Under the pieces are notes generated by a model, which worked only from the letters and a program-made list of their open reading frames with translations, searched no databases and had not been told where the DNA came from. The position numbers were made by a program, and so were the translations under genes. From Secundilactobacillus malefermentans DSM 5705 = KCTC 3548 (GTDB lineage Bacteria > Bacillota > Bacilli > Lactobacillales > Lactobacillaceae), in assembly GCF_001436395.1 (NCBI RefSeq), contig NZ_AZGJ01000006.1, positions 1 to 62,893 of the forward strand: a DNA stretch of 62,893 nucleotides, in the 5' to 3' direction. Positions 10,294-35,982 of this stretch are shown piece by piece. Position 1 is the stretch's first letter. The number at the start of each line of letters is the position of its first letter.

Positions 10294-11039
10294 TGCAGCA
10301 CTATTTTTTAAAACAGCCCGCCCAGTTGGGAGCATCAGTCGACCTAAATTCAGATATTTCTCGCCATTGGGTGAAAGTCATGCGTGCAACGCCGGGTGAT
10401 CACGCAGAATTTGTTGATTTAAATGGCAATCTATTTTTAGGACAACTCCAAACAAGTACGGATGAGAAAACGACCGTTAAACTTGTTGAAAATTTGGATT
10501 CAAAAAGCGAAATACCGGTTAATGTAACCTTGATTATGGGACTACCTAAACAGGATAAGGCAGATTGGATTGTGCAAAAGACGACGGAAATGGGCGTATC
10601 TGAGGTGATCTTTTTTGCAGCAGATTGGTCTGTTGCGCAGTGGAAGGGAAATCGGATAGATAAAAAGCTGGAACGGCTCCAAAAAATTGCCGCTGGGGCA
10701 GCCGAACAATCCCATCGGTTAAAAATCCCGACAATTAAATATGAAAAAAGTTTAGAAAATATTGTTACCTCATTTAGCGGGAGATTACTCGTTGCGTATG
10801 AAGAGGCTGCCAAACAGGGTGAAAAATCTGAACTACGTCATCAATTAGGCGAAGTAAATTCAGGTGATAATTTAGCAGTGGTTGTCGGACCAGAAGGGGG
10901 AATTTCGCCCGCTGAAATTCAACTTCTAGAAAATAATAATGGGATCAAGGTTGGCCTAGGTCCGCGAATTTTAAGAACCGAAACTGCCCCTCTTTACTTT
11001 TTAGCGGCTGTTTCAACAATAATTGAATTGAATTCCTAA
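10293..11039 (+). CDS. rsmE: 16S rRNA (uracil-1498-N3)-methyltransferase RsmE
   Basis: SPOUT-class enzyme that methylates U1498 of 16S rRNA with SAM. The N-terminal PUA-like region includes SRHWVKVMRATPGD. The C-terminal SPOUT fold carries VVVGPEGGISPAE and the closing LGPRILRTETAPL knot motif. It has 248 residues. Its ATG overlaps the prmA stop in TAATG, so the two are translationally coupled. This prmA-rsmE pair is common in Firmicutes. Confidence 0.95.
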   Translation: MQHYFLKQPAQLGASVDLNSDISRHWVKVMRATPGDHAEFVDLNGNLFLGQLQTSTDEKTTVKLVENLDSKSEIPVNVTLIMGLPKQDKADWIVQKTTEMGVSEVIFFAADWSVAQWKGNRIDKKLERLQKIAAGAAEQSHRLKIPTIKYEKSLENIVTSFSGRLLVAYEEAAKQGEKSELRHQLGEVNSGDNLAVVVGPEGGISPAEIQLLENNNGIKVGLGPRILRTETAPLYFLAAVSTIIELNS

Positions 11040-11111: not shown

Positions 11112-11444
11112 GTGACTAATATGCATAACTTACTTGATAAATATCGTTGGCAAGGATTAATCTGTATCGATTTACTATTAGGAATTATTTTGCCTTTCTT
11201 CATAAAATGGGTGGGGATAGATAAAGCATGGCGATTTGGCTTAATCTTTATCGTGATTAATTGTCTTTGGTCAATTGTGATTGGAAATATCATCAAACCT
11301 TTGCCGCATTCATGGTTATGGCTGTTTGTTTGGCCACTAATTTATATGGTTGGAAATTGGTTGTTCTATCCAAAATATGCTTATTTATTCGCCATTGTGT
11401 ATCTTGGGGCATCGTATATTGCCTATGGAAGAGAAAAAGGATAA
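11112..11444 (+). CDS. Small integral membrane protein, unknown function
   Basis: A 110-residue hydrophobic protein with four predicted membrane spans (roughly residues 15-34, 42-60, 66-83 and 86-104) and a short basic tail. Trp and Tyr cluster at the membrane edges. I recognise no named family or motif. I keep GTG 11112 because AGGA at 11102 fits it; ATG 11121 is the alternative. It lies between rsmE and rel with short gaps and may share a transcript with them. Confidence 0.65.
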   Translation: MTNMHNLLDKYRWQGLICIDLLLGIILPFFIKWVGIDKAWRFGLIFIVINCLWSIVIGNIIKPLPHSWLWLFVWPLIYMVGNWLFYPKYAYLFAIVYLGASYIAYGREKG

Positions 11445-11469
11445 GAGAATTGCATAATTAATAAACGGG

Positions 11470-13716
11470 GTGAGCAATATTCCAAAAGAGCAGATATGGA
11501 CGGCTGATCTAGTAATAAAGACCGTCTCAGAATATATGAATCAAGAGCATGTCGCTAAGGTGAAGCGGGCTTGTCAATTTGCAACGGTTGCTCATAAGGA
11601 GCAATTCAGGCAATCAGGGGAAGCCTATATTATTCACCCTATTCAAGTAGCAGGAATTCTGGCTGAATTGCGGATGGATCCTGCTACTGTTTCTGCTGGA
11701 TTTTTGCACGATGTCGTCGAAGATACTGGTGCAACCCTAAGTGACGTAAAAGAGTTATTTGGTGAAGATATCGCCATGATTGTGGATGGTGTTACCAAAC
11801 TGGGTAAGATTAAATATAAGTCCAACCGTGAACAATTGGCCGAGAATCATCGGAAATTGTTATTAGCGATGTCAAATGACATTCGAGTAATGATTGTCAA
11901 ATTGGCGGATCGATTACATAATATGCGGACACTAGAACACCTCAGGCCTGATAAACAGCGGCGCATTGCGAATGAAACTTTAGAAATTTATGCACCACTG
12001 GCTGATCGATTGGGTATTAGTACAATCAAATGGGAACTTGAGGACATTTCGCTACGGTATTTGAACCCACAACAGTATTATCGAATCGTCCATTTGATGA
12101 ACTCGAGGCGAGACCAGCGAGAAGCTTATATTGCTTTAGCAATTGGTGATATCAAAGACGCAATCGCTGATCTTAATATGAAGGTTGATATTTATGGTCG
12201 ACCAAAGCACATTTATTCGATTTATCGAAAAATGAAGGATCAACATAAGCAGTTTAGCCAGATTTATGACCTGCTGGCAATTCGAGTGATTGTTGATTCA
12301 ATCAAAGACTGTTACGCGGTTCTTGGGGCAATTCATTCCAAATGGAAGCCAATGCCTGGTCGGTTTAAGGACTACATTGCAATGCCAAAGGCCAATATGT
12401 ACCAATCCTTGCATACAACAGTGATTGGACCAGAAGGCAAGCCGCTTGAAGTGCAAATTCGAACCGAACAAATGCACCAAGTTGCTGAATTTGGTGTTGC
12501 TGCGCACTGGGCTTATAAAGAAGGGCAGACCGGTAAAGTTGAATATAATGGAACCGGCAATAAATTAAATTGGTTTAAACAAATTATTGAAATTCAAGAA
12601 GACACCGAAAATGCTGCCGATTTTATGGACAGTGTTAAGGGTGAATTATTTGGTGACCACGTTTATGCGTTTACACCCAAAGGCGATGTGTTAGAGCTGC
12701 CAAAGGGCGCAGGTCCCTTGGATATGGCGTATTCCATTCATACTGAGGTGGGAAATCATACAATTGGTGCGACTATCAATGGTAAGATTGTACCGTTGGA
12801 CTCTCAGATAAAAAATGGTGATATTGTTGATATCAAAACTTCCGCAAGTTCAACTGGCCCAAATCGTGACTGGCTCAAACTGGTTTCAACCCGGAGAGCA
12901 AGAAACAAAATTAAGCAATTCTTTAGGCAGCGTGATCGTGAAGAGAATGTCTCAACGGGTCGGGATTTAATTGTCCAACAATTGCGAGAATTTAAGTATG
13001 ATCCTAAGGCCATCATGACCAAGTCTCAACTAGAAAAAGTTGCCATTAAACTGCATTATCAACACATTGATGATCTATTTGCTGCCATTGGGTTTGGGGA
13101 TGTACAACCAGTTGGTGTTGCTAACAGACTGACGGATGATATTCGGCATGAGGCTGAGGAAAAACGGCTTCGTAACGAAGAACGTCAAATGTTAGAGGAA
13201 CATCAGACGATTTCAAATGAAACTGAAAATATTCAGCAACGCGGCAAGAAAAAGACGAATGCGCCTGAAGGGGTTGTCATTGAGGGGGTCGATAATCTCC
13301 TTGTCCGACTGAGCCACTGCTGTTCTCCGATTCCTGGGGATGAAATTGTTGGTTACATTACAAAAGGTCGTGGTGTTTCCGTCCATAGACAGAACTGTCC
13401 GAACGTTGCTAAGTCTGAAGAAAATGGCGAACGGATTGTAGATGTGTACTGGAATATTGATTCTGATTCGAAGAGTCAATACAGCGCCAATCTTGAAGTT
13501 CAGGGCTACAATCGGAACGGCTTACTGAACGATGTTTTAAAAACAATCAACAACAATACAAAATCCTTAACGTCCGTTAATGGTCAAGTCGATCATAATA
13601 AAATGGTCACTATTTCAATTTCACTAGGAATTAGAAACTTGGAACATTTACAACGAATCATGGATAATTTAAAAAATGTGCAGGATGTTTACGTTGTTAA
13701 ACGTCCATTTAGATAA
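11470..13716 (+). CDS. rel: Bifunctional (p)ppGpp synthetase/hydrolase Rel
   Basis: Makes and degrades the stringent-response alarmones (p)ppGpp in response to uncharged tRNA on ribosomes. The order of parts is an HD hydrolase domain (FLHDVVEDTGA near residue 80), a synthetase domain (RPKHIYSIYRKM, then YDLLAIRVIVDS), a TGS domain (VYAFTPKGDVLELPKGAG), a zinc-finger region (LSHCCSPIPGDEIVGY) and a C-terminal ACT domain. The length of about 748 residues is normal. The listed GTG start overlaps the only good Shine-Dalgarno. The better-placed start is an ATT codon at 11479, giving a product that begins PKEQIWT like its relatives. It is followed by dtd after 20 bases, the usual rel-dtd pair. Confidence 0.96.
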   Translation: MSNIPKEQIWTADLVIKTVSEYMNQEHVAKVKRACQFATVAHKEQFRQSGEAYIIHPIQVAGILAELRMDPATVSAGFLHDVVEDTGATLSDVKELFGEDIAMIVDGVTKLGKIKYKSNREQLAENHRKLLLAMSNDIRVMIVKLADRLHNMRTLEHLRPDKQRRIANETLEIYAPLADRLGISTIKWELEDISLRYLNPQQYYRIVHLMNSRRDQREAYIALAIGDIKDAIADLNMKVDIYGRPKHIYSIYRKMKDQHKQFSQIYDLLAIRVIVDSIKDCYAVLGAIHSKWKPMPGRFKDYIAMPKANMYQSLHTTVIGPEGKPLEVQIRTEQMHQVAEFGVAAHWAYKEGQTGKVEYNGTGNKLNWFKQIIEIQEDTENAADFMDSVKGELFGDHVYAFTPKGDVLELPKGAGPLDMAYSIHTEVGNHTIGATINGKIVPLDSQIKNGDIVDIKTSASSTGPNRDWLKLVSTRRARNKIKQFFRQRDREENVSTGRDLIVQQLREFKYDPKAIMTKSQLEKVAIKLHYQHIDDLFAAIGFGDVQPVGVANRLTDDIRHEAEEKRLRNEERQMLEEHQTISNETENIQQRGKKKTNAPEGVVIEGVDNLLVRLSHCCSPIPGDEIVGYITKGRGVSVHRQNCPNVAKSEENGERIVDVYWNIDSDSKSQYSANLEVQGYNRNGLLNDVLKTINNNTKSLTSVNGQVDHNKMVTISISLGIRNLEHLQRIMDNLKNVQDVYVVKRPFR

Positions 13717-15754: not shown

Positions 15755-16603
15755 CTATTTTTTAAGATTTTTAAAATAGGCGTTAAGTCCCTTAGTGATG
15801 TCAACAGCAACCCGTTTCTGGTAACGAGTACTCTTAATTTGGGAGAAATCCTTTTTCGTGTTGATGTAACCCATTTCAAGCAAAAGGGCGGGACGTAGAT
15901 TATCACGAATTACTAAAAAGTTGCCGAATTTTACGCCGCGATTAGTTAATGGGAGGTCAGAGAATTCAGAGTTGACCGTTTTCGCTAATCTCAAAGAGGT
16001 ACTAGTATGATAATAATACGTTGTAAACCCTGTAGCCGAATCCGCAATGGGACTTGAGTCATAGTGGAAACTGATGAACGCATCAGCATGGTTATCAGTC
16101 GCTAGTTCAGCACGGTCACCAAGGCTAACGGTTTGATTCCCTTTTCGAGTCATGATGACGTTAGTACCATACCGTTTTAGTTGCTTTTCGACCATCTTAG
16201 CTTGTTGAAGGGTGTAGGTTCTTTCCTCTTGATTTCCTTGAGAGAGGGCGCCCGAATCGCTACCCCCGTGGCCAGGATCTAAAACAATTGTCGCTTCTGA
16301 TAATTTTGTGGTAATGGTTCCTTTCTTGGGCTTGTTGACAAGCCAACTTGCAACCCAACCGGTATTATCCTGATAGCGAATCTTATACCAATTTTCCTTT
16401 TTAGTCATAATGTGAATTCGTTGCCCTTTTTTTAAGGTATCTTTGACTGAATAGGATAGGTTAGGACCAGTTCTGACATTGATATTATTAGTTGGAGTGG
16501 TTAAACTATTTTTTATAATGAGCGTGTAAACTAAGAAGCAAAAGCTAATCAGTAAGATTAAGCTTACAATAATGCCGCGCCATGGTAATTTTTTATAATT
16601 CAA
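15755..16603 (-). CDS. N-acetylmuramoyl-L-alanine amidase with SH3b domain
   Basis: Cell-wall hydrolase that cuts between muramic acid and the stem peptide, anchored or secreted outside the membrane. One N-terminal membrane segment (about residues 9-29) is followed by a bacterial SH3 domain (NVRTGPNLSYSV ... GWVASWLV) and a zinc amidase_3 domain. The last contains VLDPGHGGSDSGA, SFHYDSSP and the catalytic Glu in LLLEMGYINT. I choose TTG 16603: GAGGA is well placed for it, while the longer reading frame to 16654 starts upstream of the predicted transcription start. The length is then 282 residues. Confidence 0.92.
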   Translation of the reverse strand: MNYKKLPWRGIIVSLILLISFCFLVYTLIIKNSLTTPTNNINVRTGPNLSYSVKDTLKKGQRIHIMTKKENWYKIRYQDNTGWVASWLVNKPKKGTITTKLSEATIVLDPGHGGSDSGALSQGNQEERTYTLQQAKMVEKQLKRYGTNVIMTRKGNQTVSLGDRAELATDNHADAFISFHYDSSPIADSATGFTTYYYHTSTSLRLAKTVNSEFSDLPLTNRGVKFGNFLVIRDNLRPALLLEMGYINTKKDFSQIKSTRYQKRVAVDITKGLNAYFKNLKK

Positions 16604-16636
16604 TGATTTTTCCTCGTTTACATAGATAATAGTTTT

Positions 16637-16664
16637 ATTATAGGTATTTCTCAATGAAAATCAA
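16637..16664 (-). promoter_or_regulatory. Amidase promoter (minus strand)
   Basis: Read on the minus strand: TTGATT (16664-16659), a 16-base spacer and a perfect TATAAT (16642-16637). Transcription would start near 16630, between the two possible amidase starts, favouring TTG 16603. Confidence 0.7.
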
Positions 16665-34106: not shown

Positions 34107-34134
34107 ATGGTTTATTACGGTTGGGGGTGAGCAA

Positions 34135-35982
34135 TTGGCGAATATACCTGAAGAAGTTATAGAACAAGTTCGGAAAGAAACGAATATTGCTGACGTCATT
34201 GGTCAATACGTTCAACTCAAAAAATCTGGAAATAATTTATTTGGTTTGTGTCCATTTCAAGAGGAACGGACGCCATCCTTTTCGGTCTCCGAGAGCAAGC
34301 AAATCTATCATTGTTTTAGTTGTGGCCGTGGAGGTAGTGTCTTTAATTTCATTATGGAAATAGAAGGTTTATCCTTTAAGGAAGCCATTGGAAAAGTGGC
34401 TGAATTCAGTCACATCCAGTTACCTGAAAATGTTGAGAATGATCTTTCAGATGGCGTTTCAACTGAAACAACCGTCAATCAACAGTTAATCGATTTTCAT
34501 GAACAAGCAGCTAAGCTTTATCACCACATTTTGGTGAATACCGAGATGGGTGAACCGGCTTTGAAATATTTGAATGACCGGGGGTTAAGTGATGAAATTA
34601 TTTCCACTTATAACCTTGGATTTGCTCCTGATAAGCGGCTCTTGTTGCCATTCTTTCAAGAAAAGAAGGCCGATTTTCAATTATTAAGACAATCTGGTCT
34701 ATTCATTGAAAATCAAGAGGGCCAGTTAAGGGATCGATTCTCTGGCCGGGTCATGTTTCCAATCCGAAATCAGTCTGGAAAGACGATTGCATTTTCGGGT
34801 CGAGTTTTAGTAAAAGCTGAAAATTCTCCTAAGTATTTAAACAGTCCAGAGACCGATATTTTTAACAAACGAAAAGTGCTCTTCAATTTTGATATTGCAC
34901 GAGCTGCCGGAAGACAAACAGGAGACCTTGTTCTTTTTGAAGGCTTTATGGATGTCATCGCAGCGTACCGAGCGGGCGTTAAAAATGGCATTGCGTCTAT
35001 GGGAACTAGCTTAACTTCTGATCAAATCGTTGCAATTGAACGTATTACCAAGAAACTGGTCATTTGTTACGATGGTGATGAGCCTGGTCAAGATGCAACA
35101 AATCGTGCAATTGGCTTACTCAACGATGAGCCAAATTTAAACCTCAATATTGTTCAGATTCCTGAAAGGCTTGATCCTGATGAGTACCTAAAAAAGTATG
35201 GATCGGATAAGTTCCAAAAGCTGATTACGGGAGCAGTTGAGACGCCGATTGGATTTAAGATTCAATTTCTTAAAAAGAATCGGAATCTTGACAACGAAAG
35301 TGAACAATTGGACTACATTAATGATGTTTTAAAAGTTCTCGTAACACTTTCGTCACCGGTTGAACAGGATATTTATTTAAATCAGTTGTCTTCTAATTTT
35401 CACCTTGATAAAGAAACCCTAAAACAACAATTGTCTGATTTGCGGCAAACAATGCCACGCCAGGAGCATAGGGCTGGTAGCAATCAGCAACAGCATCGAC
35501 CAGAAGTTGATGTTGTCTATCATCGTCAGGTGCATAAAATTGACCGGACGGAACGAGGGGAAAGAAATTTGTTAGTAAGGATGCTCCATGATCGAAATGT
35601 TTGGCTAAAAGTAACGGCAGTCGAGGCCTTCCATTTTATTCATGATGATTATCAGTCAATCTATTTGTTAGCTGAAGGGTATTTTGAAACTCATCACGAG
35701 GATTATAATTCTGCACAATTTATTGATTTCGTTAAGGACAAGCGATTGCAACAAATTATTGTGGAACTAGAACTTTCCCAGATTAGTGCAGAGAGTACAA
35801 CGACTGAAATTGATGATTACTTGAATGTCATCATGAATCAGGCGCCAATCGACTCGCAACTAATTTCCTTGAAACAGGCGTTAGTTGATGCGGTTCGATT
35901 AGGAGATTCTAGTCGCGAACGCGAAGTTACTTTTGAAATTATTAAATTACAGCAGCAAATACAGCGTGAAAAACAAGCTTAA
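34135..35982 (+). CDS. dnaG: DNA primase DnaG
   Basis: Makes RNA primers at the replication fork and interacts with the DnaB-type helicase. The N-terminal zinc domain reads [14 protein letters not shown] ... [10 protein letters not shown]; the usual His ligand after CPF is Gln here. The TOPRIM core (about residues 260-345) shows [15 protein letters not shown] and [12 protein letters not shown]. The C-terminal helicase-binding region starts near residue 450. It has 615 residues. TTG start seven bases behind GGGGGTGA. It is followed 14 bases later by rpoD. Confidence 0.96.

Follow-up and report, generated by a model that had tools for sequence, protein, structure and literature searches.

The window (the whole stretch of DNA analysed, 62,893 nucleotides) comes from a Secundilactobacillus draft genome of 2.05 Mb in 152 contigs (G000). 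Its forward strand carries rel, which, read from the start proposed below, occupies 11479..13716 and encodes a long RelA/SpoT homologue of 745 amino acids followed by a stop codon. HD_4, RelA_SpoT, TGS, AH-RIS and ACT domains (Pfam) lie in one chain, and the product scores 814 bits against NCBIfam TIGR00691 (cut-off 499). Judged by RelA_SpoT matches it is the only long RelA/SpoT homologue found in this genome, and it presumably serves as both the main (p)ppGpp hydrolase and the ribosome-triggered synthetase. Between rel and a gene ending at 11039, positions 11121-11444 encode a hydrophobic-looking protein of 107 residues, 56% identical to its counterpart in a second genome (G008, see below) and without a match in Pfam or NCBIfam.

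From 11455 the rel frame reads TAA, TTA, ATA, AAC, GGG, GTG (11470), AGC, AAT, ATT (11479), CCA, AAA and GAG. The Shine-Dalgarno sequence GGGGTGA (11467..11473, forward strand) is separated by five bases (11474-11478) from the ATT (11479..11481), and the start region as a whole reads GGGGTGAGCAAT then ATT CCA AAA GAG. An ORF caller limited to ATG, GTG and TTG selects the GTG at 11470..11472, inside the Shine-Dalgarno sequence. The original prediction placed the start at the ATT, which it put at a distance of eight bases from the last paired G; this is slightly off, as the ATT begins 7 bases after G11472.

Start codon of rel across relatives

rel genes from 15 Secundilactobacillus genomes were aligned on their first codon. 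The column that holds the window's ATT is ATG in 13 of the 15, as expected if translation begins there, and ATT in two, G000 and G008 (a draft of about 90 contigs). Hence, a near-cognate codon occupies the homologous start position at which the relatives carry ATG. Homologues begin with MPKEQTWT, MSKEHIWT, MPKEEILT and others at this column, and the proposed window product, (M)PKEQIWT, lines up with them as had been anticipated. The corresponding region of G008 reads GAGGTGGATATC then ATT CCT AAA GAA, with Pro-Lys-Glu retained through synonymous changes relative to the window. In both ATT genomes a GTG lies within the Shine-Dalgarno sequence, in frame at -9; the codons between it and the ATT encode Ser-Asn in the window and Asp-Ile in G008. 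Among the 13 ATG congeners, four have a stop codon immediately 5' of the ATG. The segment 11470-11478, whose conservation as protein would have spoken against an ATT start according to the original prediction, is thus not conserved.

A wider survey drew on 193 loci (15 from the genus, 80 from named genome contigs and 98, partly repeats, from a family search), a paralogue (L017), three duplicates (L001, L098 and L099), 15 infC loci and 10 long stretches having been dropped before the count. The family search matched rel in 298 of 301 genomes, with start codons read for 30 loci and 70 fetched places. Alignment was obtained for 182 of the 193 loci, and the other 11, read by position, all have ATG. 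Among 164 distinct rel start contexts, 161 show ATG, GTG or TTG at the column or at most four codons away from it. The column itself holds 139 ATG, 5 GTG, 2 TTG and the 2 ATT; off the column, the next codon is ATG in 13 contexts and GTG in one, and one context has ATG four codons upstream. The one context still to be accounted for comes from a frameshifted contig of Listeria rocourtiae (L048, NZ_AODK01000005.1), in which a short run close to the rel start apparently contains a base too many; its out-of-frame start is probably an assembly error.

G000 and G008 group together in the rel tree (support 100/99), and none of the remaining 13 genus genomes has their ATT. The end branch leading to each is about 0.55 changes per column long, double the median, and third-codon-position identity between the two rel genes is 0.441 over 660 codons. 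The ATT is therefore present in two long-separated lineages. It probably arose by a single change in the ancestor of the two species, or may have originated in parallel in each. Where other rel codons are ATT in G000 and encode isoleucine in both genomes, 21 of 32 are likewise ATT in G008, so the shared ATT by itself is weak evidence.

Shine-Dalgarno pairing and competing readings of the start

Duplex energies were calculated with an assumed 16S 3' tail, AUCACCUCCUUUCU; the 16S 3' end gave no match in either draft genome, G000 or G008. On this basis, the window pairs upstream of its ATT at -10.9 kcal/mol and G008 at -11.2 kcal/mol. Both have a spacing value of 4, and the 13 ATG genomes have values of 3-5. 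These energies are mid-range for the genus (ATG congeners, -7.3 to -15.7 kcal/mol); a strengthened Shine-Dalgarno sequence was not found in the ATT species. Nor was a special start hairpin, with folding energies of -10.3 and -9.6 kcal/mol falling within the -5.4 to -17.1 kcal/mol of the four ATG congeners folded. Canonical codons downstream of the ATT, an ATG at +19 codons and a GTG at +27, have duplexes of only -1.3 and -2.1 kcal/mol, and starting there would delete an N-terminal part common to homologues. The ATC that directly precedes the ATT in G008 was rejected at a spacing value of 2, compared with 3-5 in the ATG genomes. With the assumed 16S tail, the rel ATT has a properly spaced Shine-Dalgarno sequence and no usable canonical alternative.

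As a control, 48 window genes conserved in G008 were examined, accepting any canonical codon up to codon 45 of the frame, a range that favours canonical codons. In 46 of the 48 a canonical start reached -6 kcal/mol or lower; this threshold is generous, and chance may account for part of the 46. A narrower range, extending no more than 12 codons into the match, missed the canonical starts of real genes (frames 34090, 39203 and 20112). The best canonical codon of rel reaches -2.1 kcal/mol compared with -10.9 kcal/mol for its ATT, and the next largest such gap among the 48 genes is 1.2. The other exception, at 15755-16660 on the minus strand, is barely past the threshold with a TTG at -5.9 kcal/mol. 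rel is a clear exception among these genes, and the unique energy gap together with the recurrence in G008 argues that its ATT is more than chance. The gene named dnaG in the original prediction (Shine-Dalgarno sequence and start codon at 34123..34137, forward strand) does share the layout of rel, as stated there: GGGGGTGA (34123-34130) is followed by four bases, GCAA, and TTG at 34135.

If rel instead began at the GTG (11470), the product would read MSNIPKEQ..., the start having shifted three codons upstream and the old ATG having decayed to an internal isoleucine codon. Both ATT genomes have this GTG in frame, callers limited to ATG, GTG and TTG choose it, and an AGGA upstream of it pairs at -6.0 kcal/mol in G008. 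That pairing is too close, however, with a spacing value of -2 rather than 3-5, and in the window there is none, the duplex upstream of the GTG being +1.3 kcal/mol against -10.9 kcal/mol for the ATT; the original prediction had argued likewise that a GTG forming part of the Shine-Dalgarno sequence makes a poor start. Furthermore, the extra codons differ between the two genomes, yet Ile-Pro-Lys-Glu is common to both, and the stop codons immediately before the ATG in four congeners also argue against an extension. We consider the GTG start improbable. A sequencing or assembly error concealing a true ATG could be entertained, given that both genomes are drafts, but the same change would be needed at the same base in two genomes as well separated as their third-position identity indicates, and this explanation is scarcely credible.

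We favour translation of the window rel from AUU at 11479 and assign this start a probability of about 0.84; the Rel level would then be lowered and IF3-dependent. Comparison supports the position of the start and its Shine-Dalgarno geometry; no usable canonical start competes with it, and the tree permits one origin of the ATT. Reduced translation and IF3 dependence we infer by analogy. The original prediction had proposed that such a start would limit Rel translation and could tie alarmone synthesis to initiation fidelity, which is a reasonable expectation given how IF3 is known to act. The 16S tail would pair with GGGGUGA five bases 5' of the AUU, and the initiator tRNA would be set on the AUU with a third-position mismatch. 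IF3 would then reject many of these complexes, just as it does when infC or another gene begins at a near-cognate codon, leaving Rel output at a fraction of the AUG rate and its synthesis tracking IF3 activity. Both hydrolase and synthetase activity would fall with the Rel level, since Rel is the sole long RelA/SpoT homologue found and presumably performs both functions. Alternatively, the AUU is the start but represents tolerated drift with no regulatory role, Rel levels being compensated by transcription or mRNA stability. As this accepts the AUU start, its odds overlap with those of the favoured reading; we rate it at somewhat below an even chance. The probably single origin of the ATT and the retention of ATG in the 13 other congeners agree with drift, and the unstrengthened Shine-Dalgarno sequence fits a low set point or drift alike. 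Drift is harder to reconcile with the persistence of ATT in both far-apart lineages when one base change would restore ATG.

Near-cognate starts in infC and other genes

The infC genes of the 15 genus genomes (L128-L142) all show GGAGGTGA, six bases and then ATA, which comes third among the codons of the longest frame. In 14 of these genomes an ATG abuts the infC Shine-Dalgarno sequence; the corresponding codon is ATA in G000, whose copy (L130, G000:C83, about 8.4 kb, minus strand) has no properly spaced canonical start left. IF3 of Secundilactobacillus is thus itself probably AUA-started, in which case near-cognate starts in G000 would number at least two, those of infC and rel. The two genes resemble each other in placing a near-cognate codon behind a good Shine-Dalgarno sequence with the same geometry, in being missed by callers limited to ATG, GTG and TTG, and in the rejection by IF3 that would be expected. 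They differ in that infC encodes the discriminating factor and closes an autogenous loop, whereas rel would be targeted without belonging to the loop, and in that the infC ATA occurs in 15/15 genus genomes compared with 2/15 for the rel ATT.

The view that ATT starts are known mainly from infC, held in the original prediction, proved too narrow. Besides the AUU start of E. coli infC, AUU starts are reported for E. coli pcnB and for lepA of Borrelia burgdorferi and Bacillus licheniformis (PMC1780047). Like rel, these lie outside infC, and the lepA cases are likewise described as inferred from sequence; all concern other genes in other organisms. In S. aureus, Ribo-Ret is reported to place the infC start at AUA, and further near-cognate starts are given for cvfC1 (AUU), ccpN (AUA) and citZ (AUA), with reporter activities of ~10% of AUG and up to 30% for ccpN in rich medium (PMC13009471). 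The latter three are Firmicute near-cognate starts as proposed for rel. That study identified them by Ribo-Ret and followed them up with reporters, whereas the rel start is proposed from sequence comparison, and extended Shine-Dalgarno motifs are described for infC, cvfC1 and ccpN in contrast to the ordinary-strength one at rel (PMC13009471). Streptomyces sigR offers a parallel as a stress-response regulator with a non-canonical start that was misannotated to an upstream canonical codon; its GTC start is reported to be repressed by IF3, and replacement with a canonical codon to deregulate the response (PMC5472188). According to that report, sigR encodes a sigma factor with a GTC start that is well conserved in Streptomyces and proven by mutation, unlike the AUU proposed for an alarmone enzyme in two species. 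A near-cognate start limiting a regulator is of an already known kind. Rel as its bearer may be new: among the papers listed on rel or the stringent response together with AUU or non-canonical starts, viewed mainly at abstract level, none named a rel AUU start.

Small alarmone synthetases and the reach of an AUU-started Rel

RelA_SpoT matches were obtained in all 15 genus genomes. One small synthetase, which we take to be RelQ-like, is open in both G000 (223 codons) and G008 (230 codons). A second is interrupted in both ATT species by an in-frame stop that differs between them, TGA after VEIQI in G000 (L253, G000:C75:19700-22200) and TAA after LDSEF in G008 (L254, G008:C70:24300-26800). Identities between the interrupted copies at the three codon positions are 0.81, 0.92 and 0.40 over 225 codons, a pattern that marks constraint at the protein level; the stops thus look recent and independent, with both copies read from draft sequence. 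Inner stops in the syntenic region served as a control and were found in 7/47 (G008 ORFs on the window), 4/47 (window ORFs on G008) and 5/44 (G005 ORFs on the window) best matches. Among the positions listed, every such stop lies within 35 residues of the beginning or 11 of the end, and none is mid-gene. The gene beside the second synthetase of G000 (MKVMLLRGVNVGG..., L253 frame at 1579) has 75 codons compared with 177 in G008, and has apparently been shortened by an internal deletion.

A further small synthetase lacking an inner stop occurs in 12 of the 13 ATG genomes, and kinship of the second synthetase was compared for three of these (G002 59, G007 55 and G011 54%). The ATG-type genome G005 shows Rel and one small synthetase only among its RelA_SpoT matches, hence the second synthetase can be missing without an ATT start. 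Genomes without a further intact small synthetase are thus 2/2 for ATT and 1/13 for ATG (hand calculation 3/105 = 0.029). This association is statistically weak because the ATT probably has one origin and the genomes are not independent. The interrupted synthetase recalls B. subtilis, in which relA loss is reported to select for mutated yjbM and ywaC, the genes of its small synthetases (PMC2474695). The pattern of loss is what low Rel hydrolase activity would predict, and with one likely ATT origin and two genomes a link is possible. A stronger version, in which the AUU makes Rel chronically scarce and IF3-dependent and thereby favours loss of a second synthetase that demands hydrolase, is doubtful in our view. 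Were it true, it would provide a natural counterpart of the B. subtilis yjbM/ywaC suppressors and a circuit linking start-codon fidelity to alarmone level.

Annotation limited to ATG, GTG and TTG hides starts of this kind, as illustrated by the plausible GTG that sits in the rel Shine-Dalgarno sequence. Combining the homologous ATG column with Shine-Dalgarno geometry may reveal more near-cognate starts genome-wide. For the ATT rel, nature already supplies a comparison in the ATG congeners. If the AUU reading is correct, IF3 would directly control the stringent response in the ATT species, since Rel sets the (p)ppGpp level.
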